Assembly: GCA_030867875.1 (NCBI GenBank)
Contig: JAOWCC010000441.1
Location: forward strand, 248,001 to 312,000
Length of the DNA stretch: 64,000 nt
Source of the DNA: Actinernus sp. WN-2022
Taxonomy: Eukaryota > Cnidaria > Anthozoa > Actiniaria > Actinernidae
Direction: 5' to 3'
Shown here: in pieces, positions 9,458 through 63,360 of the stretch
How the letters are laid out: every line of letters starts with the position of its first letter
Numbering within the stretch: the stretch's first letter is position 1
Program-made: the position numbers and the translations under genes
Notes under the pieces: model-generated
Databases searched by the model: none
What the model was told of the DNA's origin: nothing
Seen by the model: the letters and a program-made list of their open reading frames with translations, nothing else

Positions 9458-11245
9458 TTAATCTCCACTGCGGCGCGTATTGTAATTATGGTATGCATTA
9501 TTCTTTTTAAGATTAAAGTTGAAATTAATAAAGTTATTCAAACACTTAAAAATAGCTATACAGCGATGGTTGTGACGGCGACGACTTAATGGCTGCCATT
9601 GTAGTTGTTCTATAGCTTGTGTTCCTGAAGAGTATCTAGGTAGGTCTAAGATTGTTCTGGCAGCATTATTTTGTAAAATTTGTAAATGGCTCATGAGAAC
9701 TACATTGTTTTTGTCGCCCCATACTAAATCGGCATAGTCAAGTAAAGGTAAAATAAGGCTATTATACAGTGTGATACGGGCATCTAATGGCAGCAAGATT
9801 TTCACACGGCGAAGTACTCCAAGCCTCTAACAAACTTTCTTGCTTAGGGCGTCAATATGTTCAGCCCAGCTCATATTCTGTTGTATTTGTATACCGAGGT
9901 ATTTAAAAGATTCCTTCCGTTCTAGAAGGTAACCGTTTATCTCTAGCGATAAACCACTAAAGGAACTTAACTTACGCGAACTACCAAAAACTACAAATTT
10001 ACATTTATCTACGTTAAGAGTTAATAAATTGTCATTGAACCATTTGCTAAAAACCTTCAGGTCCGAGTTCAATTTGTCTGTAAGGTCCTTTACATCGTTT
10101 GAAGAGTAATATATGACTGTGTCATCAGCGTAAAGAGAGACATCGCAGCACCTCGCACAAGATGGCAGTTCATTAATATAGATGATAAAGAGGAGGGGCA
10201 CTAATACGCTTCCTTGTGGAACACCAACGGGTACGTGCTTGGCTGATGAGCTGACACCACTAACTGAAGTAACTTGCATTCTGTGGGACAAGTAAGATTT
10301 AAACCACTCCACACTGGGACTCGAAAATCCCAAACTAGTGAGCTTATTTAGTAGAAGTGAATGATCCACGGTGTCGAAAGCTTTCGATAGATCGAGGAAG
10401 ACCGCGCCCGTAACAAAACCCATGTCCATCTTTTCCAGTATTTGGTCACTGAAATGCATCGGTCTAAAACCGAATTGTCTAGATGTTAACATATTATTAT
10501 CTAAAAGATAGGCATAGACCTGTGTATGCACAGCTTTTTCAAGAATCTTACTGACGGTTGGCAGAATAGTAATGGAGGCTGTAGTTACTTGGACCGCTTC
10601 TTTCGCCTGCTTTAAAAAGAGCCGTCACTTTGCCTGACTTCCAGATTGAGAGAAAAGTAGAGGACGAGAGTGAGCGGTTGAATAGCTTTGTTAAAGCAGG
10701 GGCTATAGCAGCAGTTGAGTCATTTAGAAGGCGTGCACTAATTCCATCCAGGCCTATTGCCTTATTCGTTTTAAGTTTACTAAGCTGCCTACGCACATTG
10801 TTCCTTAACGGGCTGAAAACTAAATGTAGCCAAATTAGTGTCAGTCGAATTATGATGTAAGGAGACGTTTTCCCAAACGTAACCTAAGCCCGATTTGATT
10901 TTGTTCGCCAGCTTAGTACCAATCGAGGCAAAGTGATTGTTCATAATCCCAGCGATAGATGAAGCACTTGCGTACGAAACACCATCAAGCTTGAATAGAG
11001 GTCACAGAGGAGCTGCCTTTAGACTTACGAGAGGTAATCTCATTCAGAGTTTTCCACAGGGCACCTCTTTACTAGTTTATTGACGAAAGTTTTAGTTTTC
11101 TTGATTAGTTTATTGACGAAAGTTTTAGTTTTCTTGAAAAGCCTCCAATGATACTCGGGAGTTAGTTTTGACGGCTTTTCTGTAGTGAAAGTCGCGTTCC
11201 CGCATGGCGTTTAACACATCCGTTGTCATCCAAGGAGCCTGAAAA
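9458..11245 (-). pseudogene. L2/CR1-like retrotransposon ORF2, 5-prime truncated
   Basis: Minus-strand reverse transcriptase remnant. From the 5-prime side: APWMTTDVLNAMRERDF near 11230-11190 (linker between endonuclease and reverse transcriptase), LKTNKAIGLDGIS near 10770, QFGFRP near 10470, VFLDLSKAFDTVDHSLLLNKL near 10400 (palm motif A), GVPQGSVL near 10220, then the catalytic YADDT near 10120, and KYLGIQI near 9900. A C-terminal part (ILLPLDARITLYNSLILPLLDYADLVWG) runs from 9805 to 9458. Frame breaks occur near 9815, 10540 and in 10.8-11.2 kb. A 33-bp in-frame tandem duplication (about 11,070-11,135) lies in the linker. The endonuclease is absent, so the copy is 5-prime truncated near 11,250. 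Confidence 0.75.
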
Positions 11246-22949: not shown

Positions 22950-25499
22950 TAGGCATGTCCCGATTGCGCTGGAAAAATCGCCAAAAAGTGCTCGAAATTT
23001 AGAAATAGTGCTCGAAAAAATGCTCACGGGTATTCGAAAATTAAAAAAGAATAGTACAAAAAAGAAGACAATCAATACTTAAAAGCATTATGTTTGCACT
23101 ATATCATTTATTTGAGGTGATCATAAAGTTCAAGTAACAAACATTTGTCGAACGAAAGCCCTTATACAGTCAAGTAGTAGTTCTAAAGCACACATCACTT
23201 AACGGCATCACAAAACTGTCCACCTGTTATCATCCATGCATGAAAGGAATTATTAGTTAGTCTCTCTTTGACCTATTGTATCGAAGCATCACCGACGCTT
23301 CGATATAATCTTGCAGAGAGTTGTCTTGCTGGGCGTTGAAGGCGCTGGATAGTAGACTGAAAACTCGTTCAGCTGCTGCTGAGCTCGGCTGTATAAGCAG
23401 TAGCCTCTTGACGATTGCAAACCAGAATGGAAGCGTATCTCTGTGAGCGACCCACCAGCTGACTTTGTCGTCCTCACATGTGACTGTGACACCTTCTGCG
23501 GCAGCCATATACCGAGGAAGTTCTCTAGCTAGATTTGCGATCGTGGCATCGTTGTTGGCGAAAGGAAAATTTCTTAACTCCTCTAATGCCGCTGCTGTTG
23601 GGCGAAGTGCTTGTACCTGAACAGGACAACAAAGGCGGGCGGCTTTAAATGCTCTCACAGTGTCGCGGAACTGGACACTAAACTTTTGCTGGTAAAAGTT
23701 CAGTCCTGGCCGAACACAAGCTGTAGCTTCTGCGATAAGACGATTGGATAGAGCAGCATCGCCGTTTGCGATTTCGTTAGCAACGGCCTCAGTGTTAGGG
23801 TAGTGGCCGACTGCAATAGCGTGTGCAACAGCTGAGAGACGCTCGTAGCACGAAAAGATCAATGATCCATCGCCTTCTAGGTAGTACGTTGCGTTTACAA
23901 AATGCACCCCTGCGTCGATTACAACCGCCAGTTCCAAACGTAGCTTCTGGAGGCTCTCGGGATCATCAAATATTTCCAACAGATGTCTTCGATTTGCAGG
24001 AGATATTTCCTCGTTTTGGCGGAGGAAGGGCTCGATATCTGCAAACAAGTCGAGGGCTTGCTTCAGCACCTCCCATTTACTCCACCACCTGGTATCACTG
24101 TAAGTACGGACTGACTGCCCAGTCCTCTCTCTCCAGACCAGCTTTGCATTATAGCTGTGGGCGAAGAAGCCTATCCAAAAGCGTACAAAGGAATCTAAAA
24201 CTTCAAATTCGAAGTGAGATCCCACGTTGTCTATAGTGTGAGAAAAACAAATAACATCAAAAAAGTCTGCATAGAAAAACTTCACATTTCTCACGGCGGC
24301 CCCATTTACGGAAGCGCCATCTCGCATCCCACCAATGACTACCCTTGGGCCAAAGTTATATTCTACTGCCAAGCAGGATACCAATCTCTGAGCCAGTTCT
24401 TCTCCCTTCAGGGCCTTTGCGAGCACTTCTAGACGAATAAGGCGCTGAGTTGGCTTACAAATGTCTTCTTGAAAGAAACGCACAACGATTGCCAACGCTT
24501 CGCCCAAACGGGCAGTTCCGTCAAATATGACCGAAACCTCTTTTACGGACTTCAGTTCCTCCTTTAAAGTCTCTTTTTCTTTTTCTAGTATTGCAGGAAT
24601 AAGCTCACTTAGATGTGCACGGCTTGTTAACCGATGACCATATTTCTCAAGGAAAGGGCGCATTTTATTGATTTTCAATAGTGCAACTCCCGCTAACAGA
24701 GCTGATTCAACGAGCTCATAGCGATATAACTGCATATCTGCAGGCAACGTTGATCCAGCCGCATTTTCTTGTCTGGCTCTCTTCTGAAGACATTCCTTGA
24801 TTGACTGACTTTCTGTCTTATTTTTCCTACTACTTGCCAGACCCGCCACGTGTTTCTTTGATTTCGTATGCCTCTCAATAGAACTCTTCTTGTCGCTGAG
24901 ATCTTCGCTGCAAGCGTTACATCTAAGTTTTCTTTCCACCACGGCAAAATGTTGACCTGGGAATTCTTTCAGACGCTCCCATGAACTCACTTTAGTAGCT
25001 TTAGCGCTTCCTCTTTGCTTATAAATTCCTTTGGTGGTCGGCAATTTTCGATTCCGTGCTATCGATGCGCCTTGTGGTGCACGTAATGAGGCTCCAGAAT
25101 TTACTGCTACTGTTATTGGGTCTGTAACTACAGTTATTTCATCTTCGGATTCATTTTCACTAGATACGCTTAGCTGGTCTGTTGCCTCCATCTTCACAGT
25201 AATAGTATTTGACGATCAAGAACAGTTCAAGAAACAGTGCTGGCGTAAAAACATAAACAGAAAAGGGCGCCAAACGTTTACAGAAACACAAGAGTGTCAC
25301 GAGCCAATGAAAATCGACTGTTCCCACGGTCAAAGGACCATAGCTCGTGCATTTCCATGACAACCAGTCAATAAGCGATTTTATAGAACTATATTATGCT
25401 CAAAAGTCAAAAAGTGCTTAAGAGTGCTGGAAACGTGAAATAGTGCTCCAAACTCGAAATAGTGCCGAAATAGTGCCCAGCGCAATCGGGACATGCCTA
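22950..25499 (-). mobile_element. Complete hAT transposon, 2,550 bp
   Basis: Terminal inverted repeats of 23 bp, starting TAGGCATGTCCCGATT, match perfectly at 22,950-22,972 and 25,477-25,499. A perfect 8-bp duplication flanks them. Subterminal DNA at both ends is rich in AGTGCTC-like heptamers (for example near 22,985-23,030 and 25,400-25,470), plausible transposase-binding sites. It encloses one uninterrupted transposase gene. Intact ends, duplication and gene indicate a recent insertion. Confidence 0.93.
23257..25191 (-). CDS. hAT-family transposase with BED-type zinc finger
   Basis: An uninterrupted 644-codon frame starts at ATG 25,191; a GTG two codons upstream is not the likely start. 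Transposases of this family cut and rejoin DNA at the element ends in the nucleus. A zinc-finger region comes first, LRCNACSEDLSDKKSS through RHTKSKKH (about residues 90-118). The RNase H-like core shows VIFDGTARLG (first Asp), GGMRDGASVNG (second Asp) and CFSHTIDN (the C-x-x-H of the inserted helical domain). The C-terminal dimerisation region has PFWFAIVKRLLLIQPSSAAAERVFS and the tail EASVMLRYN. Length and domain order are normal for the family. No stop or frameshift is visible, so the protein may still be functional. Confidence 0.9.
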   Translation of the reverse strand: MEATDQLSVSSENESEDEITVVTDPITVAVNSGASLRAPQGASIARNRKLPTTKGIYKQRGSAKATKVSSWERLKEFPGQHFAVVERKLRCNACSEDLSDKKSSIERHTKSKKHVAGLASSRKNKTESQSIKECLQKRARQENAAGSTLPADMQLYRYELVESALLAGVALLKINKMRPFLEKYGHRLTSRAHLSELIPAILEKEKETLKEELKSVKEVSVIFDGTARLGEALAIVVRFFQEDICKPTQRLIRLEVLAKALKGEELAQRLVSCLAVEYNFGPRVVIGGMRDGASVNGAAVRNVKFFYADFFDVICFSHTIDNVGSHFEFEVLDSFVRFWIGFFAHSYNAKLVWRERTGQSVRTYSDTRWWSKWEVLKQALDLFADIEPFLRQNEEISPANRRHLLEIFDDPESLQKLRLELAVVIDAGVHFVNATYYLEGDGSLIFSCYERLSAVAHAIAVGHYPNTEAVANEIANGDAALSNRLIAEATACVRPGLNFYQQKFSVQFRDTVRAFKAARLCCPVQVQALRPTAAALEELRNFPFANNDATIANLARELPRYMAAAEGVTVTCEDDKVSWWVAHRDTLPFWFAIVKRLLLIQPSSAAAERVFSLLSSAFNAQQDNSLQDYIEASVMLRYNRSKRD

Positions 25500-45161: not shown

Positions 45162-46530
45162 GGAGCCTAGATAGGAATTCGTTTGCCCAATTTGTAGTAA
45201 GTCCTTTTGCAAAAACAGTAATGCAATTGAATGTGACCATTGTAATAAATAGCTTCACCGTAAATGCAGTGGGCTAACTATGGCGGAGTTTAGATTCTAT
45301 TGCAGAACAAATGACTTTTGGCTTTGTATAAATTGTAGGTATGATATTTTTCCATTTAATTCTCTAAGCATAAGCGAATTGCTTGAATTATCCTATAACT
45401 TGAATACAACTTGTCTTTGTTCTGATTCTATTTCAGAAGCATTACTTAGTACACTGCCATGTCATGATTTATTATCTTCTATTGAATCTATACCTTATCT
45501 AGCTGATTTTGATATGGATTCTCAGTTTCCTACAATAGCTAACTTTAAATATTATTCTCCACATCAATTTCATGCCAATTCAGATATTCAGAATTGCTCA
45601 ATAAATAGTTTTTCTGTCATACATTGCAATATTCGAAGTCTTCAAGCTAATTTCGATAGTCTTGTAAATATGCTAGCAGAGTTAAATTTTACTTTTTCCA
45701 TCATAGGTTTGTCAGAAACAAAATTCCAAAAAGGAAAACATTATAGCTCTAATACAAATTTAAATGGTTATTCCTTTATTTCACAGCCTAGTAATTTATG
45801 CTCTGGTGGTGTTGGAATGTATGTCAGGAATAATATCAAGTATAATCTAAGAGATGATTTAAGTACTTGCACAAATGAATACGAATCAATCTGGATTGAA
45901 ATTGAAAACAAAAAAGGAAAGAATATTCTTATTTCAGTCTTTTATAGGCATCCTAATTCATCTTTAGACATTTTCCTCAATGATTTTCATAAAACTCTTG
46001 ATGATGTCTCCAAACAAAACAAATATTGTATTATAATGGGTGACTTTAACATTAATTTGATTAATTGCGATTCTCATCCCTTAACACAAGATTATATTAA
46101 TACGCTCAGCTCTTATTCTTTTCAACCCCTAATCATCAAACCTACAAGAATAACCCATCATTCAGCCACATTGATAGATAATATTTTCTTTAATTCTTTA
46201 GATCATTTTACTGTTAGTGGAAATATTATTTCTGATCTTTCTGATCACCTTCCAAACTTCGTCATTATTGATAAGGTTTATACTTGTATTAATAAGAGTG
46301 TTATCTACAAAAGAGATTATTCTAAATTGGATTCATCAAACTTGATTGAGGATTATACTAAGGTTGACTTTACAAATCTATTTCCGACTGAATCGTGTTC
46401 GCCTGATGATCTTTTTAAAATATTCCATGCAAAAACTAGTGAAATTCTTGGTAAACATGCTCCTTTGAGAAAGTTATCTCGTAAAGAGATAAAGTTGTCC
46501 CAAAAACCTTGTATAAATCGATTTGCATAA
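45162..46530 (+). pseudogene. Retrotransposon ORF2, PHD-like finger and endonuclease
   Basis: An ATG near 45,162 starts a Cys-rich finger (VCPICSKSF, ECDHCNK, LHRKCSG, LCINC) interrupted by two TAG codons, at positions where Gln (CAG) would fit. The endonuclease follows: VIHCNIRSLQANF, GLSETKF, GGVGMYVRNNIKYNLRDD, SIWIEIEN, SVFYRHPN, IIMGDFNINL (catalytic Asp/Asn), and SDLSDHLPNFVII (Asp-His). The frame breaks at about 46,520 between endonuclease and reverse transcriptase. This enzyme nicks target DNA for target-primed reverse transcription. Confidence 0.8.
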
Positions 46531-48476
46531 AAAATAATCTATACAGACATTACATCAAATCCAAGAGTCATTATCATCATTCAAAGTACAAATATTATAG
46601 AAATAGATTAAAATATTTAATTCTTCTGAGTAAGAAGAAGTATTACCATGATTATTTTGAGATCCATGCTAAAAGTTCTAAAAATCTTTGGAAAGGTATC
46701 AAACAAATTATATCAACTAAGAATACCTCAACATTTATTCCCTCTAAAATATTTGTGAAGAACAATGCAATAACTGATCCACTAGCTATTGCTAATTCAT
46801 TTAATGCTTTTTTCTCCAATATGGGTAAGAATTTAGCTAATTCCATTAAATCCTCTAATATTTCCCCACTTGGTTACATGAAAACTCCAGTTAAGGAAAG
46901 TTTTTTTCTTTTTCCCTGTACATCAGAGGAAATTGCATTAGAAATTGATAAGCTTTCTACTAACAAAGCAGCTGGGCCCTCTAGTATTCCAGTTTCAATT
47001 ATGAAACTCCTAAGGGATCTGATATCAAAACCTCTTGAGATAATATTTAATTTATCTCTTTCCACAGGCACTGTACCAGACTCTTTTAAAATAGCAAGGG
47101 TAATTCCAGTGTTTAAAAATGGTGAAAGAACTATTATGAATAATTTTAGACCCATATCACTTCTTTCAATTTTTAATAAACTTCTTGAAAAGCTTATGTA
47201 TAATCGCCTTTGGAATTTTCTTGAAAAACATCAAGTTGTATCTAATTCACAATTTGGTTTTCGCCCAAAACACTCCACAATACATGCTATTTTACTGATA
47301 ATTGATAAAATCCAATGTGCTATCGAAGATGGGGAATTTGCCTGTGGTATTTTCTTAGACTTTAGTAAAGCTTTTGATACCGTCAATCATAATATTCTGA
47401 TCCAAAAACTTAATTTTTATGGTGTAAGAGGTATCCCAAATTTTTGGTTTTCTTCATATTTATCTAATAGAAAACAGTTTGTATCCATTGGTAATGTATC
47501 TTCTGACCTAAAGCCTGTCCCATGTGGTGTCCCTCAAGGATCAGTACTGGGACCTTTACTTTTTTAAATTTATATTAATGATTTTCCTTACTGTTCCAGT
47601 GTATTTAACTTTTATTTATTTGCAGATGATTCAAATTTATTTTTAGCAAATAAGAACTTAGATCAACTTGAATCTACCATAAATGTTGAATTGGAGAAAA
47701 TTAAGGACTGGTTAGCTACCAATAAGTTATCTTTAAATATTGATAAATCTAATTATGTTATTTTTCATCCATCACAAAAGAAAGTATACCCTATAAATAT
47801 TGTTATAAATAGGAAGACTCTATGTTGCAAACCTTATATTAAATACCTTGGTATCTTAATAGATGCTAATCTTAATTGGAAATATCAAATCCAAAATGTA
47901 TCGAAAAAAGTATCTAAAGGGAATGGAATTCTATCTAAGATTAGGCATTTTGTACCCCTTGACACCTTAGTTAAAATGTATTATTCACTTGTGTATCCCT
48001 TTTTTACGTATGGTCTATTGGCTTGGGGTAGTACTTATCAGACCTCTCTTAAACCCCTTGTTATTTTACAAAAAAAAGCACTACGTATAATGACCTTTTC
48101 CTCTTTTAATGCTCATACTAATCTCTTGTTTAAAGATCTTGGCATACTGAAATTCTCTGATTTAATATTCTTGTACATCTCAGTGTTTATGTTTCAATAT
48201 AACCATAATGATCTCCCCTCATCTTTTGATAATTTCTTTACCCACGTCACTAATGTTCACCATCATAATACTCGTTTGGCTTCCAAAGCAGCATACTATG
48301 CACCTAAAATTAGAACAAATTATGGAAAATTTAGAATAAGATATACTGGTGTACAGATTTGGAACCAAATTAAGGGTGAGCTAAAGCAACTATCAACACA
48401 TAAATGTTTCAGCAAAAATCTAAAGCAGGAGTTTCTATCAAAATATAAAAAAAAATTTTTTTATGGAACTTGAACA
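46509..48476 (+). pseudogene. Retrotransposon ORF2, reverse transcriptase
   Basis: One frame from 46,509 to 48,476 broken only by TAA at 47,565-47,567. Motifs in order: TNKAAGPSSIPVSIMK, ARVIPVFKNGERTIMNNFRPIS, QFGFRPKHSTIHA, FLDFSKAFDTVNHNILIQKL (catalytic Asp), VPCGVPQGSVLGPLLF (just before the TAA), YLFADDSNLFLA (catalytic Asp pair), KYLGILID, and a C-terminal tail with FRIRYTGVQIWNQI. Frame is kept across the TAA, so a single substitution is the simplest explanation. Upstream it is out of frame with the endonuclease. Confidence 0.85.
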
Positions 48477-51386: not shown

Positions 51387-51392
51387 ATTGTC
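51387..51392. repeat. Target-site duplication, left (ATTGTC)
   Basis: ATTGTC immediately before the left inverted repeat; the same six bases follow the right one at 63,355-63,360. Six bases is the duplication made by Polinton/Maverick integrases. Confidence 0.9.
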
Positions 51393-51770
51393 AGTAGTAA
51401 GGGGGCCCAGTATGGGTAGCCAGCGAGCCTCCTGATTGGCCGAGAGAGGGGGCGGAGCTAAATATGACGTCACAAGTTTCGTGACGTGACAAGGGCCTGT
51501 CACCCGCTGGTGCACAAAGCCAGGCTTCTGATTGGTCGGAAGTTTAGGGGGGTCCCGCCAGGTTCGGAGGGGTTGGAGGGGAGCCCAAAGCCAGGCTTCT
51601 GATTGGTCGGAAGTTTAGGGGGGTCCCGCCAGGTTCGGAAGGGTGTCGGAGAGGCGTCGGGGAGAACAAACCCAGGGCCCGGATTGGTCGGCGGGGTTGT
51701 CGGGGGAGAACAAACCCAGGGCTCGGATTGGCGCCCGGAAAAGATCCGGGACGTATAAGAAAGTGAACCC
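51393..51770 (+). repeat. Left terminal inverted repeat
   Basis: About 378 bp matching the reverse complement of 62,989-63,354. Outer 170 bp are essentially identical; the inner part has small differences and a 13-bp length difference. Inside are two copies of a 70-bp unit (CCAGGCTTCTGATTGGTCGG) and two of GAACAAACCCAGGGC. Confidence 0.92.
51449..51760 (+). promoter_or_regulatory. Viral-type promoter inside the left inverted repeat
   Basis: In order: GC box GGGGGCGGAGC (51,449-51,459), CRE palindrome TGACGTCA (51,465-51,472) with further TGACGTGAC half-sites, five inverted CCAAT boxes (ATTGG at 51,435, 51,531, 51,602, 51,683 and 51,727), and TATAAGA at 51,754-51,760, 35 bases before ATG 51,795. 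Arrangement and distance fit an RNA polymerase II promoter for the left-arm genes. Confidence 0.65.
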
Positions 51771-51794
51771 TCCCTTGTAAATTTAGTGTGAACG

Positions 51795-52709
51795 ATGCCC
51801 CCTACGTGCTTTTGTGGGTGTTACGCCAAAGCCGTCAAAGGATTAGCCGGGACGCCAGAGTGTGTGTACAAGTGTGGACAAACAGCGGATTACAAGGCGC
51901 AACCCCCAGTGTTGCCGTGCAGTTTTTATTTTACGGAGAAAGACCTTCCTCTGGTGAAAGCGGCTATCCCCTACGGCACGTTGTACAACACGTTTCCCAA
52001 TTGTGGCCACAATTTGTGGATGAAAGTGGGGGTGAGCCGAAGCGAGAAAAATCCGAACCGCGTGTTCTTTACGTGTACGGCCCCGGCGCCCAACCCGAAG
52101 TGCGAGTACCCGCTGGGATTTATGTGGTCCGGCCCCCCGGCACAACCTATTGTGGACGGACCCTCATCCCCTAAGAAAGCCCAATACTACGCCTCACCAT
52201 GGACGTCACAGGCCCCCCAAGGTCCGCCACCCGTCGCTTGGATCAATCCCAACGCCACTACGCCTCTTACGGGTCCCCCCGCGGAAACACCAGGGCCCCC
52301 CGGTGGGGAATATATGGAACCCGTCAGAGACGTCCTCCGGACCCCCTACTGGTATAGTGGCCGTGGGTCCCCCGCCCTCCCCACCCCCTATAGACATCCC
52401 GACAACGAGCCGGACACCTCGCTACCAGCCCCACGCGACCTATTGTCCGTGAGCCAAGAAGACCCAGATTTGGGGGACATGCCGGACAACCGGGATTTAC
52501 CCGCCCTAAAAGCCGGGTGGGCTTTGCACAAAACGCTCTACGTCATGGCGTGCATCCGGGAATGCATGCGAGAACGTGGTCGGCACTGTGAGGGGTGTGC
52601 TTATAGTCAACAGAGTCAACAGGCCGAACGGTACCATTCCTGTTTATGGACTTTTTCCGAGGAAAGTTTCAACCCGAAGGTGGCGGAGCCCGGTCTCATA
52701 TTACCCTAG
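51795..52709 (+). CDS. GRF-type zinc-finger protein, element left arm
   Basis: ATG 51,795 opens an intact 304-residue frame 35 bases after the TATA box. The first 30 residues are Cys-rich (CFCGCY, CVYKCG). Residues 70-111 contain NCGHNLW, KNPNRVFFTC and CEYPLGFMW: the N-P-N-R-x-F-F-x-C and C-x(n)-F-x-W signature of the GRF zinc finger, which binds single-stranded DNA in enzymes such as TopIII-alpha, APEX2 and NEIL3. Residues 112-235 are Pro-rich and probably disordered. The C-terminal part (LHKTLYVMACIRECMRERG) holds further Cys. A role beside the element polymerase in replication is inference. The 3-prime end overlaps the next gene by 64 bases in another frame. Confidence 0.7.
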   Translation: MPPTCFCGCYAKAVKGLAGTPECVYKCGQTADYKAQPPVLPCSFYFTEKDLPLVKAAIPYGTLYNTFPNCGHNLWMKVGVSRSEKNPNRVFFTCTAPAPNPKCEYPLGFMWSGPPAQPIVDGPSSPKKAQYYASPWTSQAPQGPPPVAWINPNATTPLTGPPAETPGPPGGEYMEPVRDVLRTPYWYSGRGSPALPTPYRHPDNEPDTSLPAPRDLLSVSQEDPDLGDMPDNRDLPALKAGWALHKTLYVMACIRECMRERGRHCEGCAYSQQSQQAERYHSCLWTFSEESFNPKVAEPGLILP

Positions 52710-52999
52710 AGGCTCTACGGGCTACGGGCTACCGGGCTTTGCAGAGTTTGCACCTCACGGGGATTATTGCTCCCCTTACTTATTCCGTGTTTGAACGGTT
52801 GCAAAAACTAAAGGAGGCCGAAATTTACGAGTATTGTAAACGGTATTATTTTGAAGAATGCGAAGACCCCCTTATCACTTACAAGAATCGAATTTGGCAC
52901 GCGTTGGGCCAAGCTTTGATTTACGAAGACAATCCCCAGGACTATATTGAAACTGGAGTGGCTACCCTTGTGGCTGTATGTGATTCAACCACTATGTAA
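52646..52999 (+). CDS. Small unrecognised protein, element left arm
   Basis: ATG 52,646 opens 117 residues to TAA 52,997-52,999, overlapping the previous gene. It is helical and acidic (FERLQKLKEAEIYEYCKRYYF, ALIYEDNPQDYIETG). An AATAAA lies 10 bases past the stop, consistent with this being the last left-arm gene. The overlap could be natural or a shifted continuation of the upstream protein. No family recognised. Confidence 0.55.
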   Translation: MDFFRGKFQPEGGGARSHITLEALRATGYRALQSLHLTGIIAPLTYSVFERLQKLKEAEIYEYCKRYYFEECEDPLITYKNRIWHALGQALIYEDNPQDYIETGVATLVAVCDSTTM

Positions 53000-53008
53000 T
53001 AAGGAGTC

Positions 53009-53014
53009 AATAAA
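53009..53014 (+). terminator. Polyadenylation signal of the left-arm transcript
   Basis: AATAAA 10 bases after the stop codon at 52,999, in an A/T-rich run. Confidence 0.6.
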
Positions 53015-53179
53015 ATTTTAAAAATAAATAAAAAAGAATGGAACGAAGAATGTTTTAGAGAAACTGTTTCTGTAGAGGCGCTCTTACTAGAGCGAAGGTC
53101 CTAGGAGAGGGCCTCGAAAAAACCCTATAAAAAATAACCAAATTGAACTTCCTAAAGTGGGGAAAATTTGCCAATAAAA

Positions 53180-55610
53180 ATGAACGGTGTGTTAAGCAGC
53201 TACCGAACGCTACACTGTCTTTTAGGGGGAAGGGAGAACATCAACAACTTACATGAGCCAGGTTCATAGCGTCTGCACCATAAATATTCTAGAAAAGCAA
53301 AAGAAAAAATTAGTGATTGTGTTCAAAGACACAAAAAACTTCAGCAGGGATAGTACCTCTCTCGCTCTGTTGGGACCGCGGCCAGCCATTGATGTTTTTG
53401 TTGTTGTTGTTGTTGGGCACTTCTGTGGAGTGTAGAAACAACAAGAGGCCCTGAGTGGCCTTAACTCGGGCCATCTATAGCATGTACTGCATGGAGTTCT
53501 AGCATAATTTTGTGTCAGCATCGTTTGTGCTAGAGTAGCCAGAGAATTGGTTCTCTACTGATGCTCTTATCTGTCAAATGTCAATGTGCAAATGCCCCAC
53601 GTATTCCGGGGGGGGGGGGTTGGTTAGGGTTATGGTATGCTGGGGGGGGGGGGGGGGAGTTGGAAATGATATAGCCATAATACACACACAACACACACAT
53701 ACATGCAGTGCATGCAGTACATTTCAGCCACAATTTCCTTCAATTCTGTAGTTTAACATTACTTTCTTTTCAATATTGTTCCTTGAGGGTCGTTAGAATT
53801 ATTACAAAAAAACTTGGTATGGGTGTTGATTGAAGTGCAATGGTTATTTGAGTAGTCTGCACGATATCGAGTCACTCACATTTGATGCATTGTAATTATA
53901 TCTCGATCAGGTGCAGTACGACTATGAATAATCAAGGAATTTAGAACAACAAATTCCACATAATGTTGCTATTCATTGTGAATAGTTAGGTAATGTCATT
54001 CTACATGTGAAATAAAGTCATCTATTTGTAATTCTCAATTATTAACAAACCAGTGGTGACGGCTGGAATTCAGGCTAAATTCTCAATACAATATTTTCGA
54101 TTGAGGTCGTAAACTACAGACCACCATTTTCTAGTATTAGTGAGCTGCCACTGTGCTAGTGCTCATTTTCTACATCTTGAAGGAGACTGAAACTTATAAT
54201 GGCAGGCCACAAAGAAACAAGCAATGTCCACTCATTTTTTTATATCATTGGGGTCGCAGCATGATTAATTTTCATTCCCAAATAATTCTTAAAAGTACTC
54301 ATACTCCTGATCATGACCGAGTGAAAGTGACGATGCTGACGCTAAGAACTGAGGAACAACAACAACAATTACATTTATTTTCTCATAAGATGATGGAAAT
54401 GTTTACGAGTAATAAGGCATAATAAGAAATACAATGATGATAAGGTAGGTCCTTTAGGTAACCTTAGGGTTATCTTAAGCCAGGACCACCTCAGATGGAA
54501 AACACTGAAACAAGATCTAGCTTGCATGGCAATATATTGGTACCAAGAAAGGGGAAGGGAAAGAAAGAGTGCCACTTGCATGTAAGTATACTCTCAGTTC
54601 TTGACCAAATTTAGTTATGTTATGTTATAAACTTGCAATAATGATAAATACACTACTCTATACATAATATCATTATGTCAGTTCTAAAAAAAAAAACATT
54701 AAATACACTGTAGAATGCCTGAACCCAGAGATAATAATCAAATACAAAGAGGTACAGGCCAGATGTAAATAGACCCGGGAAATAGAACAAAATAAAACCA
54801 GTGTCAATAACACGCCACAGATAAATATGCGATTTCCACATCAGTCATTTATCGTTCGTTTGAAAAAATCTTCATTTCGGATTACTTACTCAGTTTATAC
54901 TCACTCACTGCATGCTGGGATTTTCGTTCCCGAATTTATAAACATTTAAATACATGTGCATGGGGGGCGAAACGACTGTAATTCTTTTAAAAGGCCCCTG
55001 TCAGTCAGAGAACTGAGAAATCGGGTCATTTCTACTACACTTTCGAGAGGTTAATAACAATAAATAACAACACAACGACAGTCAATTGGTATAAAGGTTA
55101 TCATGTTCAGATTAGCGGCTACTTACATTTACAAGCTGTTGTGTTGACTGTTGTCTTTATAGTCAGAGCTGTGTTCTGTCACGAGTGTATCTTAAAGCAT
55201 GTCGCATAATATGTGATAAATTCCCGTCCAAAGCCCGTGAAACACCCTTCAGCTTTAGAAAAGAGAAAAATCTTGGTATCGCACTTGAAGGAACCTTTGG
55301 TTTACACAAAAAAACAGCTGATATTAAAGGTTTTGCTAAGTCAAACTCCCACTCGCCGCCATCTTGAAAAACATGAAAATATTGTCCACTGTTCACGTGA
55401 CCAGCACAGTGCAATCTGATTGGTACGCTGGCGAAAACAACTTCCAAAGAAGGCGCAATGCGATTGGTTGACGGCGAAATACCTCGACACAAAAAATTAA
55501 AAAAATACAAACACTTGCAAAACTAGACTCGGGCCTGCCCACAGGCAGACCGAGTAAAAAGGAAACCAAAGAATAAACGATTAGTACAGAAGCGTGTTGA
55601 ATTTCAACTA
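53180..55610. other. AT-rich block inside the element, no element gene
   Basis: Base composition drops sharply to host-like AT-rich DNA. It contains GTT runs (near 53,395), two long G tracts (near 53,608 and 53,642) and no open frame of note. The opposite-strand frames at 55,163-55,510 and 55,626-55,393 lack recognisable domains. It is best explained as a foreign insertion, perhaps together with loss of element genes. No inverted ends or target duplication were found. Confidence 0.5.
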
Positions 55611-55647
55611 CCCTTTCTCCTCGCAAGAACCGTTTACACTCCCCGAG

Positions 55648-55925
55648 ATGGAGACTCTAGAGGACGACATCACCGAGGAGGAAGTAGAAAGACTCGTCGC
55701 CGCGCTGAACCTCCCCGCCGTGCTTCCAGAATTGACGGGCTAAGACCTGGAAAGCTTATTTCGCGTGGACACTCGAAACCCTTACCACCTCAACCTCTTG
55801 TGGGGAAAATTGGGGCCCAATTCCCCACAGACAGAGAACGAGAACCACGAGGAGGACAACGAGAACGATTTTGATCCAGAGGGAGGCGTACGAAGAGAGG
55901 ATGACCGAGGGCGCCACTTGGCCTA
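55648..55925 (+). pseudogene. Short acidic reading frame between left and right arms
   Basis: ATG 55,648 opens METLEDDITEEEVERLVAAL and stops at TAA 55,741-55,743. The same frame then stays open (DLESLFRVDTRNPYHLNLLW, then an Asn/Glu/Asp-rich run) until it becomes antisense to polymerase motif C near 55,925. The composition looks genuine. The TAA may be a nonsense change, and the direct collision with the polymerase suggests a deletion junction. Confidence 0.4.
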
Positions 55926-58900
55926 TTTTCTGCGTGAAATAGATGCTGTCCGTATCGTGGTAGACGATGCGGTCCTTCAAGAGGTGGAGGTAAGAATAGA
56001 GTTTCAGGCGTGCGTGGGCTGTGGTGTAGGCGGCAAACATGACGTTGGTATGGGGGTTGGAGTCGATGTGCTGCGGGGTGGCGTTGTAATGCACTTGCAC
56101 CATGTCTTCGTGGACAAACAGAATGTCCTGGACTTCATTCTCGTCGCTCATCATGAGCTCGAAGTAGCGGTCCAACTCGGTGACGTACTCCGTCTGCCGA
56201 GGGTTCTGCTTCTGGCCGAACTTGCCCCACAAGGTGTTGAGAATCCATTTCGCCAGGGCCCGCATCCCCGGGTTGAACGCGTACCTGGCCCACTCCAGTA
56301 AAATCCCCATGGCCCTCCGGTAACTGTCTATAAAAGAGGCTTCCTCGGCGTCGGTGTTGCACCCGGGCGGCCACCCACTCGCTTCTTGTTTCATCTTGAG
56401 GAAAGTGTTCACGTAGTCTGTGAACAACACCTGGGTCCCGGTTGCGGGATCGTACTGTTCCGACTCGGAATAATGCCATACCCGGTACATTTCCAGGACC
56501 CGGTACCCTTGGCGCAGGGCCTCGTGGAGTTTGTGGCTCACCCAAGTGCCTGTCAAAGCCCGGGCCTCGTTGTTGTGGCGGCAGGTTTCCTGGTTCTTGT
56601 CTTCGGTGCAGGACCGACAAAGGGTAAATAGGAGTTTTTCCCCCACATGTGTCGGGAGGACCGGGAAAAACAGCCGGCGTGGCGGCAAGATCTTGAGGTG
56701 GATTAACCCCTCGTACGGGTGGGTAGGGTCTAAGTTCTCGGTAAGGATTTCTGGATGGCCCAGCGGGAACCGTTGCGTCTTTTGCACCCAGGGGTACAGG
56801 GAGCACACATCCAGCACCTCCATCCATTCTCTCCCCCATTCTCCCTCGCTCGCTTCCCAGTAGGTCTTGATCCCGTTGGTCCGCCCTCCAAAGAACGCTT
56901 TCTTGGGGTCGAGGGGAAGCTGGGCTTGAGGGATGGGCGCTAGGGCGACGATAGTCGGGTCCAAGGCCATGGCCGCACGAATTTCGCACTCCCTGATCTG
57001 GACCACGCGGTACCCTTGCTGTTTCAGGTACAACATTTTGTCTCGGGTCCGGTCGGCCAACGTTTTCATCGTGCAGTGCAGTAAGGGGTGCACTCTCTCT
57101 TGATGGGTGCAACGGTCGCATCCGTGCCAGAAACAGCCATTTATTTCGTACGCCGTGTGGGTGGCAGCGTGGTACCCGTCCAGTTTGTAGGGGCTCACGT
57201 GCTTCTCTCCGAAATTGCCCGCGTGCTGGATCTGAATTCCGTCCCGCCGCTCCACGTGGGCCAACCATTGGAGGGCCAACCATTGGAGCGCCAACGCCGA
57301 CTGTACGTCCTTGGGCCGGTAGCCGAGCCGTGTCAAGACCGCAATGGTGTTAGGTCTGAGGAATTTCTTGCGGAACACTAGGTTGCATAGGGAGGCGAGT
57401 GTGACGGTCCTGGTAAAGGGGTCTATACCCGCCGCTTTCATCATAATAGCCCGGAACGCCAAACAGGCCCGTTGCAAGATGGCCACATCCCGATGGCGGT
57501 AGAGGGCCAACTCTTTCTGGAAGTCGAAGACCCCACCGCGGGCCCGTTCGGCCGCATGCCAGGCCACCAGTTCTTCTTTGCCTTGCGGACTCAGCGAATC
57601 CGGTTCGTAATAATGAAGGTCTGGTAGTGGGCCCACGTACTGTTGATGTTCTGGTTTGTTAAAAAAGATGGGGAAATCCAGCTTGTTGAGGTTTTCGGCT
57701 TGGAAACCGAACGTGACGGGAAATTGTTTGAGGGCCAGAGCAACGAGTCTTTGATAACCAACTTGTACTCGGGGATGGTTACCACCATCGCCTTGCCGCC
57801 GCGGAAGAGCACTTTCGGTTTTATGGCATTCTTGAAGATGTATTCCAGGATGGGATACGAGTCGTACCCCATGGCGTTGTGGGCCGGGCACACGTAGTTT
57901 TTGTGATCCCCCGAGAAGAGCCAGTCGCAGAATTGGGGGAGGGCCGTGGGGCCTCGGAACTCTACTTTCCGTGGGCCGCATTGAGTGCAGGTGGTACAGT
58001 CTGTGGACACACAGAGATCGCAAACTTTCGAGACCCCTGCAAAGTTGACTACGTGCTGCGCTTCCAGGGGCATGGCTTCGAAGTCAAAAAAGAGGTACCG
58101 GAACTTGTCCTCGTGCCCCTCGTCTTCCGCGGCGGCTCTCTCCGTCTCTTCTTCTTCCGCCAGGGGGGCTGCGTATGCATCTGCTTCTTCATCTTCTTCT
58201 TCTTCTCCTCCTCCCCCTTCTGGGGCTAGGCGCGGGACTTGTTGTCCGCCACTTGCATGTAGCACAAGTAGTCCGGGGGGACAATAGCTTTGCAATTCCG
58301 GCACTTGTATTCTCCGCACACGTGGTTTCCGAGCCGGCCCCGAGCCAGATGGTCCACCGTCGCCCCACACTGGACACAACGTGTGTACCGTTCGCACGAA
58401 CTCCATTCTCTGGTGTAGAGATTCCCTTGCCCCGTCCGGTGGGGTTGGTGACGGCGGTGGTTGTCGAAGCAGTCCCCACTCTTGAACCATCGACGTCACT
58501 GGTCACATTTTCTCCAAGACCATCTCTCCCCATGGGGGAGGGGAGAGCAATCTTTGACCCCACAACAGACACAGGTCGTGTCACAAGCGTGTTGTCTAGG
58601 GTCTTGGTAGGTCTTCTGGCAGAGGGGGCAGAAGTATTTGGCATTCAGGAGACCCCTCATGTTGTTGATGACGTCATAGTGGTGGTTCTCGGTTTGGTAG
58701 AGGTACACGCGGTAGCGGGCCTCAGGGAGGTAGCCCGAGTAAATAATGCTGTTCATATGCTCTCGGGAGACCAGATTGACTTCTACCCCTTGGCCTGCCA
58801 AGTACGCTTGGAATCGCTTGAGCTCCGGGATCCCACACGGTTGAATAGGGACGCCTGCCTGGTGGTGGAGCTCCAAGGCTAGAGTCCGTTGTCGGGGTCT

Positions 58901-59335
58901 CCCTCGTCTTATTTGGTGGTACTGAGGATGTTGCTGCTCCCTGGCCAGGGCCTCTGGCCATGCACAATTCATCATAATTGTGTATCCTCACAATGCTTTG
59001 TTTGATTTTTTTAAATTTCGCCAAGTCGGCCGTACAGCAACGGGCCACACGCCCTCTTCCCGCACTGGGTATTTTCACGTGAAACACATGGATGTGGAAG
59101 CGGCCCCTCATAATGAATTCTTGATTCGATTGTGTGATCTCACCAATTCTGGCCATGATTAGGGCGGGGGTGAGGGTGGACCTCATCAGGTATGGAAAAG
59201 CCAATGGGTAGTCCAGATGAGGAGCGTCTAGGGTCAGGCGTACTCTGTCTTGCGGCTCGGTTTCCCCTAGGGTGGTCTCCAGGACCCTCTCTATAGCGAC
59301 CGTGACGTCTTGAAGGGCCTGTCCATAAAAAATTA
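55925..59335 (-). pseudogene. polB: Type B (protein-primed-type) DNA polymerase of the element
   Basis: The gene runs leftwards through about five frames. N-terminal conserved blocks: IHNYDELCMAR near 58,980-58,950; then HHYDVINNMRGLLNAKYFC and a zinc cluster (near 58,700-58,580); CERYTRCVQCG and EYKCRNCK near 58,400-58,290. Exonuclease: FFDFEA (58,085), HNAMGYD (57,881), KDS (57,752). Polymerase: VTFGF, then a nuclease-like insert with LDGYHAATHTAYEINGCFWHGC (57,195-57,118) resembling a Vsr-type endonuclease fold, motif A LDVCSLYP (56,814-56,791), motif B KWILNTLWGKFG (56,250-56,215), motif C YHDTDSIYF (55,962-55,936). Frame changes near 58,945, 58,500, 58,230 and 57,740; a 15-bp duplication at about 57,255-57,290. 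The C-terminal thumb after motif C is missing. Such enzymes replicate linear genomes primed by a terminal protein. Confidence 0.85.
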
Positions 59336-59339
59336 TACA

Positions 59340-59480
59340 TAAAATAAATAATACATAAAAAAATTAAAAATTAAGAAATATTTTTTTTATTTTATTTTTA
59401 AATTAAAAATAATAAATAAAAAAGTGGGGCACTCTGTAGTCCGGCTAGAGGAGATAAAGAAGAAAAAGAAAAAAAGGGAA
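59340..59480. other. A/T-only stretch between polymerase and the minisatellite
   Basis: About 80 bases of almost pure A and T with several AATAAA-type words on both strands (59,340-59,425). It may serve as polyadenylation DNA for the right-arm transcript. Confidence 0.35.
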
Positions 59481-59689
59481 AAAATTGGATTTCCTCACGG
59501 GGACTCTTGGAACAGGAGATTTAACCCTTGGCGCCACCTCGCGCGCGAGCGCTGTGACGTCATGCCAAAATAGTGTAGTCAACCCTTACTTCGGGCAGAG
59601 TCGCGCGGGATCGCGTCCTTATTCTTAGTTCGTAGTCCTTACATGTCGTCTTGAATTTTTTGCACGCTCTGGACCGGGTTTGTAGGTGT

Positions 59690-60150
59690 TCAAAGTCCTC
59701 CTCCTCCTCCTCCTTCAAATTCCTCCTCCTCCTCTTCTACCTCTTCCTCTTCCTCTTCCTCTTCCACTTCCTCTTCCTCTTCCTCTTCCTCTTCCTCTTC
59801 CTCCTCCTCTTCTTCCAACCTCTTCTTCCAACCTCTTCTTCCAACCTCTTCTTCCAACCTCTTCTTCCAACCTCTTCCTCCAACCTCTTCCTCCAACCTC
59901 TTCTTCCAACCTCTTCTTCCAACCTCTTCTACCAACCTCTTCTACCAACCTCTTCTACCAACCTCTTCTACCAACCTCTTCTTCCAACCTCTTCTTCCAA
60001 CCTCTTCTTCCAACCTCTTCTTCCAACCTCTTCTTCCAACCTCTTCTTCCAACCTCTTCTTCCAACCTCTTCTTCCAACCTCTTCTTCCAACCTCTTCTT
60101 CCAACCTCTTCTTCCAACCTCTTCTTCCAACCTCTTCTTCCAACCTCTTC
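59690..60150. repeat. 13-bp minisatellite with a (TTCCTC)n leader
   Basis: TTCCTC hexamers (59,730-59,808) lead into about 26 tandem copies of TTCTTCCAACCTC up to 60,150. Variants TTCCTCCAACCTC (two) and TTCTACCAACCTC (four in a row) form local blocks. Because 13 is not a multiple of 3, every frame cycles through the same 13-residue peptide and all six frames stay open. Long Pro/Leu/Ser and Lys/Glu frames here are therefore by-products. Confidence 0.9.
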
Positions 60151-60329
60151 TCTCTCTTCGCACTCTTTGTAGTGCCGTCCTCTTCTTCCTCCATGTCTTC
60201 GTCGTCGTCAAGCGCCATCCTATGGTCCACCCTCTTGTCGGCCTCTTCTTCTTCTTTTAGATCGTCGTCGTCTTCCTTATCTCCCTCCACTTTATACTTC
60301 GCTAGGGCTGTACTCAAGTGTTCCCTCAA
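60150..60329 (-). pseudogene. Acidic tail frame, probably the shifted end of the large right-arm protein
   Basis: Minus strand reads EHLSTALAKYKVEGDKEDDD, then Glu/Asp-rich sequence until it enters the minisatellite. It overlaps the last codons of the large gene in another frame. An acidic, disordered C-terminus reached by one frameshift is a reasonable reading; it could equally be low-complexity chance. Confidence 0.35.
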
Positions 60330-62922
60330 GGCAGGATTTCCTCGCGGGGGTCAGCCGATCCACCCCCTGCGTCGCAGGAAGGACACAGGCACGCACTTTA
60401 CGATGGATCAGGCTCGTGGTGACCATAGAATGGCTGAGGTTGTAGGCAAGGCGGTACAGCCGTTCGCTTTGCCAGGAGCAGGTTCGCCTTCCCTGGACGT
60501 AGGCGTACAACTCAAACTCCGAATAGTCATAGAGTTGGTACAACAGCATGGTGGTCCAGTGGTCCCAGATAGGCAACAGAAGATCATACTCTTCGTTCAG
60601 GATTTGGTTCGTGACATGGGGGCATAACTCCTTGAGTGTTTTCTTGTGATGCTTCCTCACCTGGGTCTGGCATTCGTCAAAACTCAGACCGAGGTTGTGG
60701 GTGTCGTTCCAGTGCAGGGTGGCCTGGCTGTACCGTTCACACAAATGGAAGTACAGGTAAGCGAGGAAGTGCTGATACTCTACTATGATGGCACGCTCTC
60801 TCATGTACCGGGTTTCTTGCGCTGGGAAGTCGGGGTCCGGGAGTAGTTCGCCGAAGCTTTTGTCGAAATGGGACTGGCACGCCGACTCTATCTTCAGGTA
60901 GCGGGAAGAGATGATTTTACTGACCACCGTCATCCCCGCATCGTAGGATTCGGCGTGGTACCAATACCTGTCGTTACGGACGTCTTGGGTACGGCTGCGG
61001 TACAAGCAACCCTGCTCTCCCCAGACCAGGTCTTCACGCATTCGCGTCTCGCACAACTCGTGCCATTCCAGCTTCAGGCACTGCTTCAGGGGAAACCAGT
61101 TGAACAAGAAGTTCGTCCTCTCCCTCAGGAAATTGCAGCGCATGGAGCAACTGGACCATTTGGCGCCCACTCCCAGATGGTGGCACACGGCCGCCTCGTT
61201 CATGTAGGCGAATTCCTTCATGACCATAGATAGATAGATAGATAGATCGTTTATTATAATTACCTTACTTACAGCATAACTGAATTACTAAGGATCACAA
61301 TTCTAAACATTAATTACGTATACTTATAAACTAATTCGATAAAATGTTATGATATTAAAACTAACAGTTAAAAGCAGCTATTTGGCTAATTCAAGACCTG
61401 TGTACTAACTTAAATGATGTGAGTTATAGTGTCGAACACTAGAGTTGATGAAAGTGTTCCGGAATCGGTTTGTTTTACTAAGCGGAAGTGTGAAAGACCT
61501 CTTATACCGTAGTGTGACAGTCGGATTACTAAGGTTATGTGGTAAAAGATGATATAAATTACCATTAGGATTAGATATGATTTTACGAAAAAGAGTATGA
61601 CATAGTTCAGATCTGCGATGATAAAGGCTAGTAAGGCCGGACAAAGCAAGAGCTTGTTCGTAAGGTAAGTCGTAGCCATGAAGAATACGCATTGCTCTCT
61701 TTTGTATGCGTTCTAAGGTAAGACTAAGGTATTCTGGTAAACTGTAATGAAATACTTGACAAGCGTAGAGTAAAATAGATTGTATACAAGCAACATAGAA
61801 TTTAACTAGGTCCTTAGCTGGAACGTTTGCACGTTTTAATTGTGTTAAAAAATAAAGTCTGCCAGAAGCTTTCTTTATAATGTAATCAATGTGAGAGTTC
61901 CACTTTAAATCACTCTGAATTATTACACCGAGAATTTTTACAGACTGTACAAGATCGACCAAGCAATTATTAATATATACATCGTTATGTACTTTTGGAG
62001 AACGTGAAAATGAAATCATCATCGCGTACAGCACCTCCCGCTCAGCGGGGAGCACATCTATGCAAAGCCAATAATGCACACACCCCGCCAGCATGTGTTG
62101 CAGTTCCTTCAAATACCGCACCTCCAGCAACTTCTTCACGACAGGGAACTCCTTCTTCACCACCTCATCTAACTTCTGCCGGTCCTAGATCTCTCTCTCG
62201 CTCATCAGGTCTTGGTAGAATTTGGCCAAGAGGGCCCGGCACACACTCCTCATGTCCTTCTTGTACTTGAACACGAGTACTTTGTTATCGTCGTATTTGA
62301 ACAACCACGCGTCCTCCGCGTTATAGCCGCGAGGAATCTTCAAAGTCAAGGCTTTGCGTTTGCCCTCCCGTTGGGCCACTTGCTTCACCCGCTGAAAACA
62401 ATCCCCGTTCGCGTAGGAGACCACCGCCATGTACAGGGAGGCCAACGTGACGTGCATCGGACTCATGGGAGGGAGGTCGCTATGCCTCTGATAGGTGTTC
62501 ATGAGGTGTACCCTCTGCAGAAATCCTCCAAACAATTTGGCCATGTCGTCCGTCCCCTTTTCCCACAGTTTGCCTCGCCACGTTTGCAAAATGACATACG
62601 CTTGGTCGGTCGTGAGTTGTTTCAGGCTGGCCACCACCTCGTCCCTCATCTCTAGCGTTACGGGCAACGCACACATCTGCCCAAAATAGGGCAGGAATTC
62701 GTTCAGGTGTTCCGGCGAAAAACCTTGGCGAGCTTTCTCCCAATTCTCGGCGAATCCCTCTTTCGGACGAATTATTTTCCATTGCGAAATGTCGGCGGTC
62801 ACCAAAGCCACGTACAAATGCTGGGTCAATGCTTTAAATTGTTCACGGCTCGCTTTCTCTACTTCGTTTGCCGATAGGAATTTCATCGTGTTGATCATCT
62901 TCCCAAAGTGTCCACACTTCAT
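60292..62922 (-). pseudogene. Large unrecognised right-arm protein, split by a stop and a retrotransposon
   Basis: ATG 62,922 opens 245 codons (KCGHFGKMINTMKFLSANEV to YQDLMSEREI) to TAG 62,187-62,185. The same frame continues (LDEVVKKEFPVVKKLLEVRY) until a retrotransposon interrupts it near 62,020, and resumes at about 61,230 (KEFAYMNEAAVCHHLGVGAK) to a stop at 60,292. Without the lesions it would be a protein of roughly 615 residues. It is rich in Leu, Lys, Glu, Tyr and Trp and looks mainly helical, with several Cys/His. I do not recognise it; by size and position as first gene of the arm a structural or replication role is possible but unsupported. The TATA box in the right inverted repeat lies about 75 bases upstream. 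Confidence 0.6.
61228..62020 (-). mobile_element. 5-prime-truncated L2/CR1-like retrotransposon insertion
   Basis: Minus strand encodes the C-terminal reverse transcriptase region: VKILGVIIQSDLKWNSHIDY, YFLTQLKRANVPAKDLVKFY, RIQKRAMRILHGYD and a tail with RYKRSFTLPLSKTNRFRNTF to a stop at 61,405. Its 3-prime end is a (ATCT)n tail at 61,230-61,250, next to the resumed host frame. It inserted into the large right-arm gene, so it is younger than the element. A clear target duplication is not resolved; only short CAT/ATG matches flank it. Confidence 0.8.
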
Positions 62923-62988
62923 GGTACTCTCGATAGAGCATAGACACCACGGCAAAGAACCAAAACAACATGAATGCCTTCTCCCCAA

Positions 62989-63354
62989 GGGTTCACTTTT
63001 TTATATGCCCCGGGTCTTTTCCGGGCGCCAATCCGAGCCCTGGGTTTGTTCCCCGCCGACCAATCCGGGCCCTGGGTTTGTTCTCCCCGACGCCTCTCCG
63101 ACCCCCTTCCGAGACTGGCGAGACCCCCCTAAACTTACGACCAATCAGAAGCCTGGCTTTGGTCTCCCCTCCAACCCCTCCGAACCTGGTGAGACCCCCC
63201 TAAACTTCCGACCAATCAGAAGCCTGGCTTTGTGCACCAGCGGGTGACAGGCCCTTGTCACGTCACGAAACTTGTGACGTCATATTTAGCTCCGCCCCCT
63301 CTCTCGGCCAATCAGGAGGCTCGCTGGCTACCCATACTGGGCCCCCTTACTACT
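62989..63354 (-). repeat. Right terminal inverted repeat
   Basis: About 366 bp, reverse complement of 51,393-51,770. See the left copy. Confidence 0.92.
62997..63305 (-). promoter_or_regulatory. Viral-type promoter inside the right inverted repeat
   Basis: On the minus strand the same order as the left end: GC box near 63,290, CRE TGACGTCA (63,275-63,282), CCAAT boxes at 63,308, 63,212, 63,141, 63,060 and 63,028, then ATATAAAAAA (63,006-62,997). It would drive the right arm leftwards. Confidence 0.65.
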
Positions 63355-63360
63355 ATTGTC
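63355..63360. repeat. Target-site duplication, right (ATTGTC)
   Basis: Identical to 51,387-51,392. Confidence 0.9.

Follow-up and report, generated by a model that had tools for sequence, protein, structure and literature searches.

Evidence that a 12-kb Polinton/Maverick-like element in the genome of Actinernus sp. WN-2022 is a defective, rearranged copy of a repeated family

The window analysed here is a stretch of 64,000 nt of DNA from Actinernus sp. WN-2022, and the element at 51393-63354 within it is almost certainly a defective, rearranged copy belonging to an ordinary, repeated Polinton/Maverick (adintovirus-type) family of this genome. The earlier note on this DNA had proposed that its small gene set results either from a large internal deletion or from its being a distinct compact lineage mobilised by another element's integrase. 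The former has held, with an inversion now added to it, whilst the latter is not supported, given fuller copies with the same ends and a junction that, among the 40 places scored, occurs in the window alone. The supposed compact, integrase-less Polinton lineage is dropped, and such a picture can come from one rearranged copy. The parent family, with many copies in one genome, provides a usable set for the study of Polinton decay and carries a large protein for which no relative was found in our searches.

Ends, remaining genes and foreign insertions

The element is flanked by an exact 6-bp target-site duplication (TSD), and both of its termini are AGTAGTAAGGGGGCCCAG. Alignment of the two arms of the terminal inverted repeat (TIR) covers 379 positions, includes a 12-bp gap and gives a match of 93.7 %, and their outermost 162 nt are identical; the TIR and TSD match is far beyond chance, which rules out a chance origin of the ends. 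The exact duplication and the inverted repeats starting AGT, both read from the sequence beforehand, were thus confirmed at their original positions, as was the type B polymerase (Pfam DNA_pol_B_2, 7.6e-24), which is of the organellar/viral family-B type. These are traits of Polintons/Mavericks: a 6-bp TSD (ATTGTC here; TCCATG and GGCGTT in relatives), long TIRs (~370 bp) with (AGT)2//(ACT)2 ends, and a family-B polymerase, truncated in the window copy, for which protein priming is predicted from sequence. Features are listed in Table 1.

Table 1. Features of the element and its target site (window positions)
Feature	Position	Strand	Basis or remark
Left target-site duplication, ATTGTC	51387..51392		Identical to 63355-63360
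Left terminal inverted repeat, AGTAGT at start	51393..51771	+	Arm-to-arm alignment
GRF-like zinc-finger protein, first ~300 codons, frameshift before C-terminal part	51792..52709	+	86 % identity to L019:8461-9600, residues 1-304
'Small protein', frameshifted C-terminal part of GRF-like protein	52607..52999	+	83 % identity to L019 frame, residues 305-346
Dispersed host repeat inside element (AT-rich block)	53440..55530		49 of 50 matches elsewhere in genome; right edge approximate, query ended at 55500
Acidic-protein frame, 3' half; 5' half lost	55607..55884	+	96 % identical DNA in L019:3152-2875, frame longer there
Filler, 18 nt, at rearrangement junction	55885..55902		No other scored place spans 55884|55903
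Protein-primed-type (predicted) family-B polymerase, four pieces, last 121 residues lost	55903..59189	-	Pfam, homologues, best relative
TCC-rich tract and 13-bp minisatellite (27.6 copies) at second rearrangement boundary	59696..60151		Repeat listing, copy alignment
Large protein frame, split by stop at 62185 and retrotransposon piece	60292..63000	-	Matches L028:1693-4047, residues 1-310 (80 %) and 330-627 (55 %)
Non-LTR retrotransposon piece	~61227..62016	-	Absent from copies L028, L030 and L036; Pfam ALKBH8_N 1.6e-11 in its frame
Right terminal inverted repeat, ACTACT at end	62988..63354	-	Arm-to-arm alignment
Right target-site duplication, ATTGTC	63355..63360		Partner of left ATTGTC

The polymerase had 362 homologues at E ≤ 0.001 (7999 candidates scored). 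Genome-encoded proteins of sea anemone, clam and mussel share 41-44 % identity with it, and 'PolB-C [Rhodactis coral adintovirus]' 41 %. In the window it stops at the equivalent of residue 1067 of the 1188 in its best relative. Strong PHROGs matches, to polymerase and endonuclease families, were confined to this frame, and no OTU model of Pfam matched its window pieces, which are short and frameshifted.

Among the other genes listed beforehand, the GRF-like and large-protein frames stood, whereas the 'small protein' did not survive as a gene of its own and the acidic frame proved to be a 3' remnant only. The reference for the first of these, a protein that we take to be GRF-like from its motif, is a 380-codon open frame in another copy (L019:8461-9600), although in L019, too, the frame is lost beyond residue ~346. 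As both the GRF-like and the 'small protein' parts match this one frame, and as a single frame in L027 spans the two, they represent one frameshifted gene; a separate 'small protein' gene was accordingly rejected. The GRF-like frame had no match in Pfam or PDB and nothing at E ≤ 0.01 in the protein database, and among the literature matches listed we found no mention of a GRF finger in Polintons. For the large protein, the piece at 60292-61233 likewise gave nothing at E ≤ 0.01 in the protein database, and PDB gave no match for its two pieces, for the full large frame or for the polymerase piece. Five IMG/VR scans of viral contigs returned no relative.

The earlier reading that integrase, ATPase and protease are not recognizable was upheld from two sides: Pfam scans of nine window frames revealed neither an integrase nor an A32 ATPase or C5 protease, and when 13 frames of other copies were compared with the whole window (E ≤ 0.01), matches were limited to the GRF-like, polymerase and large-protein frames. 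The rve integrase and FtsK/A32 packaging ATPase of Polintons/Mavericks were not found in the window copy by these searches, whereas same-end copies carry both; for the integrase, this means that the family possesses the gene and the window copy has lost it.

Two foreign insertions interrupt the element. Most of the AT-rich block is a repeat dispersed through the host genome, with matches of >1 kb at 90-97 % identity, most of which begin at 53433-53440 (40 of 4231 candidates scored); the adjoining stretch 53016-53439 has partial matches (72-82 %) in the fetched pieces L019, L025, L031 and L032, and may be the element's own sequence or another repeat. The second is the retrotransposon piece, and the Pfam model that its frame matches is one commonly hit by LINE reverse-transcriptase tails. 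Neither the AT-rich repeat (words of 7) nor the retrotransposon piece (words of 8) showed a direct repeat at its edges. The minisatellite (59794-60151) has a unit of 13 bp, which is not divisible by 3, so that it encodes a 13-residue repeat in every frame and creates spurious open frames. The part of the window before the element (1-51386) contains several frames that, judged by eye, belong to other transposable elements, including reverse transcriptases (9827-10624 and 45253-48473) and a hAT-like transposase (23257-25215).

Copies with the same ends in the host genome

The window's own assembly (1.39 Gb, 1772 contigs) was searched with the left 601 bp of the element, giving at least 50 matches (40 of 748 candidates scored). 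Two of these were the window's own ends, leaving at least 48 further left-end matches, several of them in one copy. Ten copies, in 20 pieces that extend no further than 18 kb beyond the left end, were fetched, together with four further places. Both ends could be paired in three of the ten (copies A, B and C), all with AGTAGT...ACTACT termini. Copy A (C685:7203728-7218141) spans 14.4 kb with TSD TCCATG, and copy C (C685:6402278-6418237) spans 16.0 kb with TSD GGCGTT. Copy B (C1380) has the same 12-nt flanks as copy A on both sides and is therefore taken as a duplicate of that insertion, so that A and C are the two independent insertions of this set. Copies C1706:4590352 and C1422 also have a common left flank, so that independent insertions are fewer than the copy counts.

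The fuller gene content of the family is best seen in copy A. An A32-type ATPase (Pox_A32, 3.2e-6) and an rve integrase (1.1e-13) with a C-terminal chromodomain (1.7e-9) all score above the Pfam cut-offs, the latter two being supported additionally by PDB integrase and chromodomain sequences. A Peptidase_C5 match (0.014) lies below its cut-off, and that frame has no match in the window. Copy A is without the N-terminal half of the polymerase; no capsid model matched in its Pfam scan, and several of its frames are without a convincing Pfam match. Copy C has matches to the ATPase and integrase frames of copy A, the integrase being broken, as well as a frame that, judged by eye, is presumably penton-like. 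At E ≤ 1e-8, gene matches in the ten fetched copies comprised the GRF-like gene in all 10, the ATPase in six, the polymerase in four, and the integrase and the large protein in three each; in none of the seven remaining copies was the right end located, so that gene absences there say little. The integrase itself was matched at 93-100 % identity over nearly its full 386 codons in at least 107 places (107 scored of 6638 candidates; shared ends not checked), most with one in-frame stop and a minority with none.

The search of the same genome with the inverted repeats, proposed in the earlier note, thus yielded same-end copies with integrase and ATPase, although capsid and protease are unproved among them and none of the copies seen is complete. 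The note had held that the standard gene set between the same ends would tell against a compact lineage, and since same-end copies carry integrase and ATPase, this is largely what was found.

Several further arrangements were observed. Three left-end copies on one strand of C235 (42297814, 42307411 and 42316930) lie ~9.5-9.6 kb apart, which suggests tandem duplication, and the GRF-like gene is the only match in their fetched stretches. A 16-kb stretch (L059/L060; C790:8095323-8111628) has left-end and GRF-like sequence at both ends in opposite orientation, and these enclose ATPase matches as well as a third GRF-like piece. Furthermore, eight loci in GTDB contigs (L001-L008) contain Polinton-type polymerases in records filed as bacterial (Limnohabitans, Photobacterium, Epulopiscium and others). 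Judging from titles and content, these are most likely animal contamination of bacterial assemblies; in the four loci whose frames were listed, ATPase-, integrase- and capsid-like frames were named by eye.

In copy A, the large protein is a 785-codon open frame (L028:1693-4047, minus strand) that has stretches of acidic and basic residues towards its C-terminus and lies beside the right end, as it does in the longer copies. It had no Pfam match below E 0.05 and no relative in PDB or among viral contigs. From its position only, we would guess that it is possibly a replication or terminal protein.

The rearrangement and its explanation

Compared with copy A, the window copy is missing ~9.3 kb (the copy A span between the equivalents of 55903 and 60118), a span that in copy A contains the ATPase, the integrase and unnamed frames as well as the ends of both the polymerase and the large protein. 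The block carrying the polymerase (55903-59749) is, moreover, inverted relative to L019/L020 and L027. When 55700-56100 was compared with the genome, 40 places were scored (of 640 candidates), of which 37 begin at 55903 and two end at 55884; the window alone spans the junction 55884|55903, which occurs in none of the 39 others. Two other copies, at C685:16.40 Mb and C796:0.44 Mb, show the two flanks of the junction ~4 kb apart on opposite strands, whilst in the window they share one strand, in agreement with the inversion being the window's own change. In other copies, TCC-rich repeats are found both within the large-protein gene and ahead of the polymerase, and it is plausible that the right boundary, itself within such repeats, was a joining site.

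Selection was assessed as dN/dS by the Nei-Gojobori method. For the polymerase, a comparison of two other copies with each other gave 0.15 (430 codons) and one of the window with copy A gave 0.23 (312 codons); between the window and its nearest copy the value was 1.17 (333 codons; dN 0.048, dS 0.041), which reflects few changes and may be inflated by some codons beside a frameshift. The GRF-like gene gave 0.37 and 0.20, the first half of the large protein 0.42 and 0.31, and its second half 0.83 and 1.32; copy A against copy C gave 0.65 for the large protein (483 codons). Within the family, selection had constrained both the polymerase and the GRF-like gene; no clear constraint is seen on the second half of the large frame, and the window copy looks to be decaying.

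We propose that the parent element would have been integrated by its own rve-chromodomain integrase and replicated from its inverted ends by its protein-primed polymerase. Deletion and inversion probably arose once, whether in the inserted element or shortly beforehand in a defective genome, and low-complexity tracts such as the TCC-rich repeats of the right boundary may have been the joining points. The window copy also carries frameshifts and the two insertions, the dispersed repeat and the retrotransposon piece.

That the short form instead represents a distinct compact, non-autonomous lineage, keeping polymerase, GRF-like and large proteins and mobilized in trans by the integrase of full copies, is barely credible. 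Both ends and the TSD are preserved, and integrase matches are many in the same genome, but its junction recurs at none of the 39 other scored places, and with the polymerase truncated and frameshifted and the large protein broken, nothing looks to have been kept by selection in the short form. An assembly misjoin, giving rise to the inversion or the deletion, is very unlikely: the right boundary does lie within low-complexity repeats, yet the left junction falls outside the listed tandem repeats and carries the filler, and the TSD and ends match exactly.

It is possible, although we consider it unlikely, that deletion and inversion occurred during replication in a one-off defective (DI-like) genome and that the short molecule was then integrated in trans. 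The retention of both full ends with a perfect TSD and the abundance of integrase matches in the genome would agree with this; the same facts are, however, explained by simple decay after insertion, and the inserted host repeat and retrotransposon piece imply that the locus was disturbed at least twice more. A bolder combination, which we regard as quite improbable, would have the short form as a DI-like particle genome, with its inverted polymerase block, integrated in trans by a full-length relative and so fixed in an animal chromosome and, separately, the 785-codon frame as an undescribed Polinton protein. A defective, rearranged copy of the ordinary repeated element is thus the reading that we retain.

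Comparison with known Polintons and adintoviruses

Vertebrate Mavericks/Polintons have 5'-(AGT)2//(ACT)2-3' ends, a 6-bp TSD and TIRs averaging 402 bp; intact elements measure 12.7-24.6 kb, and mutational degradation affects 96 % of the loci surveyed (Barreat & Katzourakis, 2021; PMC8097293). The window copy resembles these in its end motif, 6-bp TSD, TIRs of a few hundred bp and a polymerase B of the predicted protein-primed kind, and the longer copies do so in carrying integrase and ATPase. In contrast to that description, the ATPase of copy A shares its strand with the integrase and not with the polymerase, the GRF-like and 785-codon frames adjoin the ends, and the window copy is without the integrase module. 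With adintoviruses, for which a chromodomain integrase is a described trait and a hexon and an OTU-like polymerase domain are defining according to Buck et al. (2024, preprint; PMC11071296), the family shares the rve integrase with C-terminal chromodomain of copy A, which was not found in the window copy. The window polymerase, at 41 % identity to the Rhodactis coral adintovirus PolB-C, adds to the resemblance; the likeness lies in integrase-chromodomain and polymerase, as against the hexon and OTU-like domain of that account. Taken together, the family fits the described Polinton/adintovirus traits, with the window copy as one of its degraded members.
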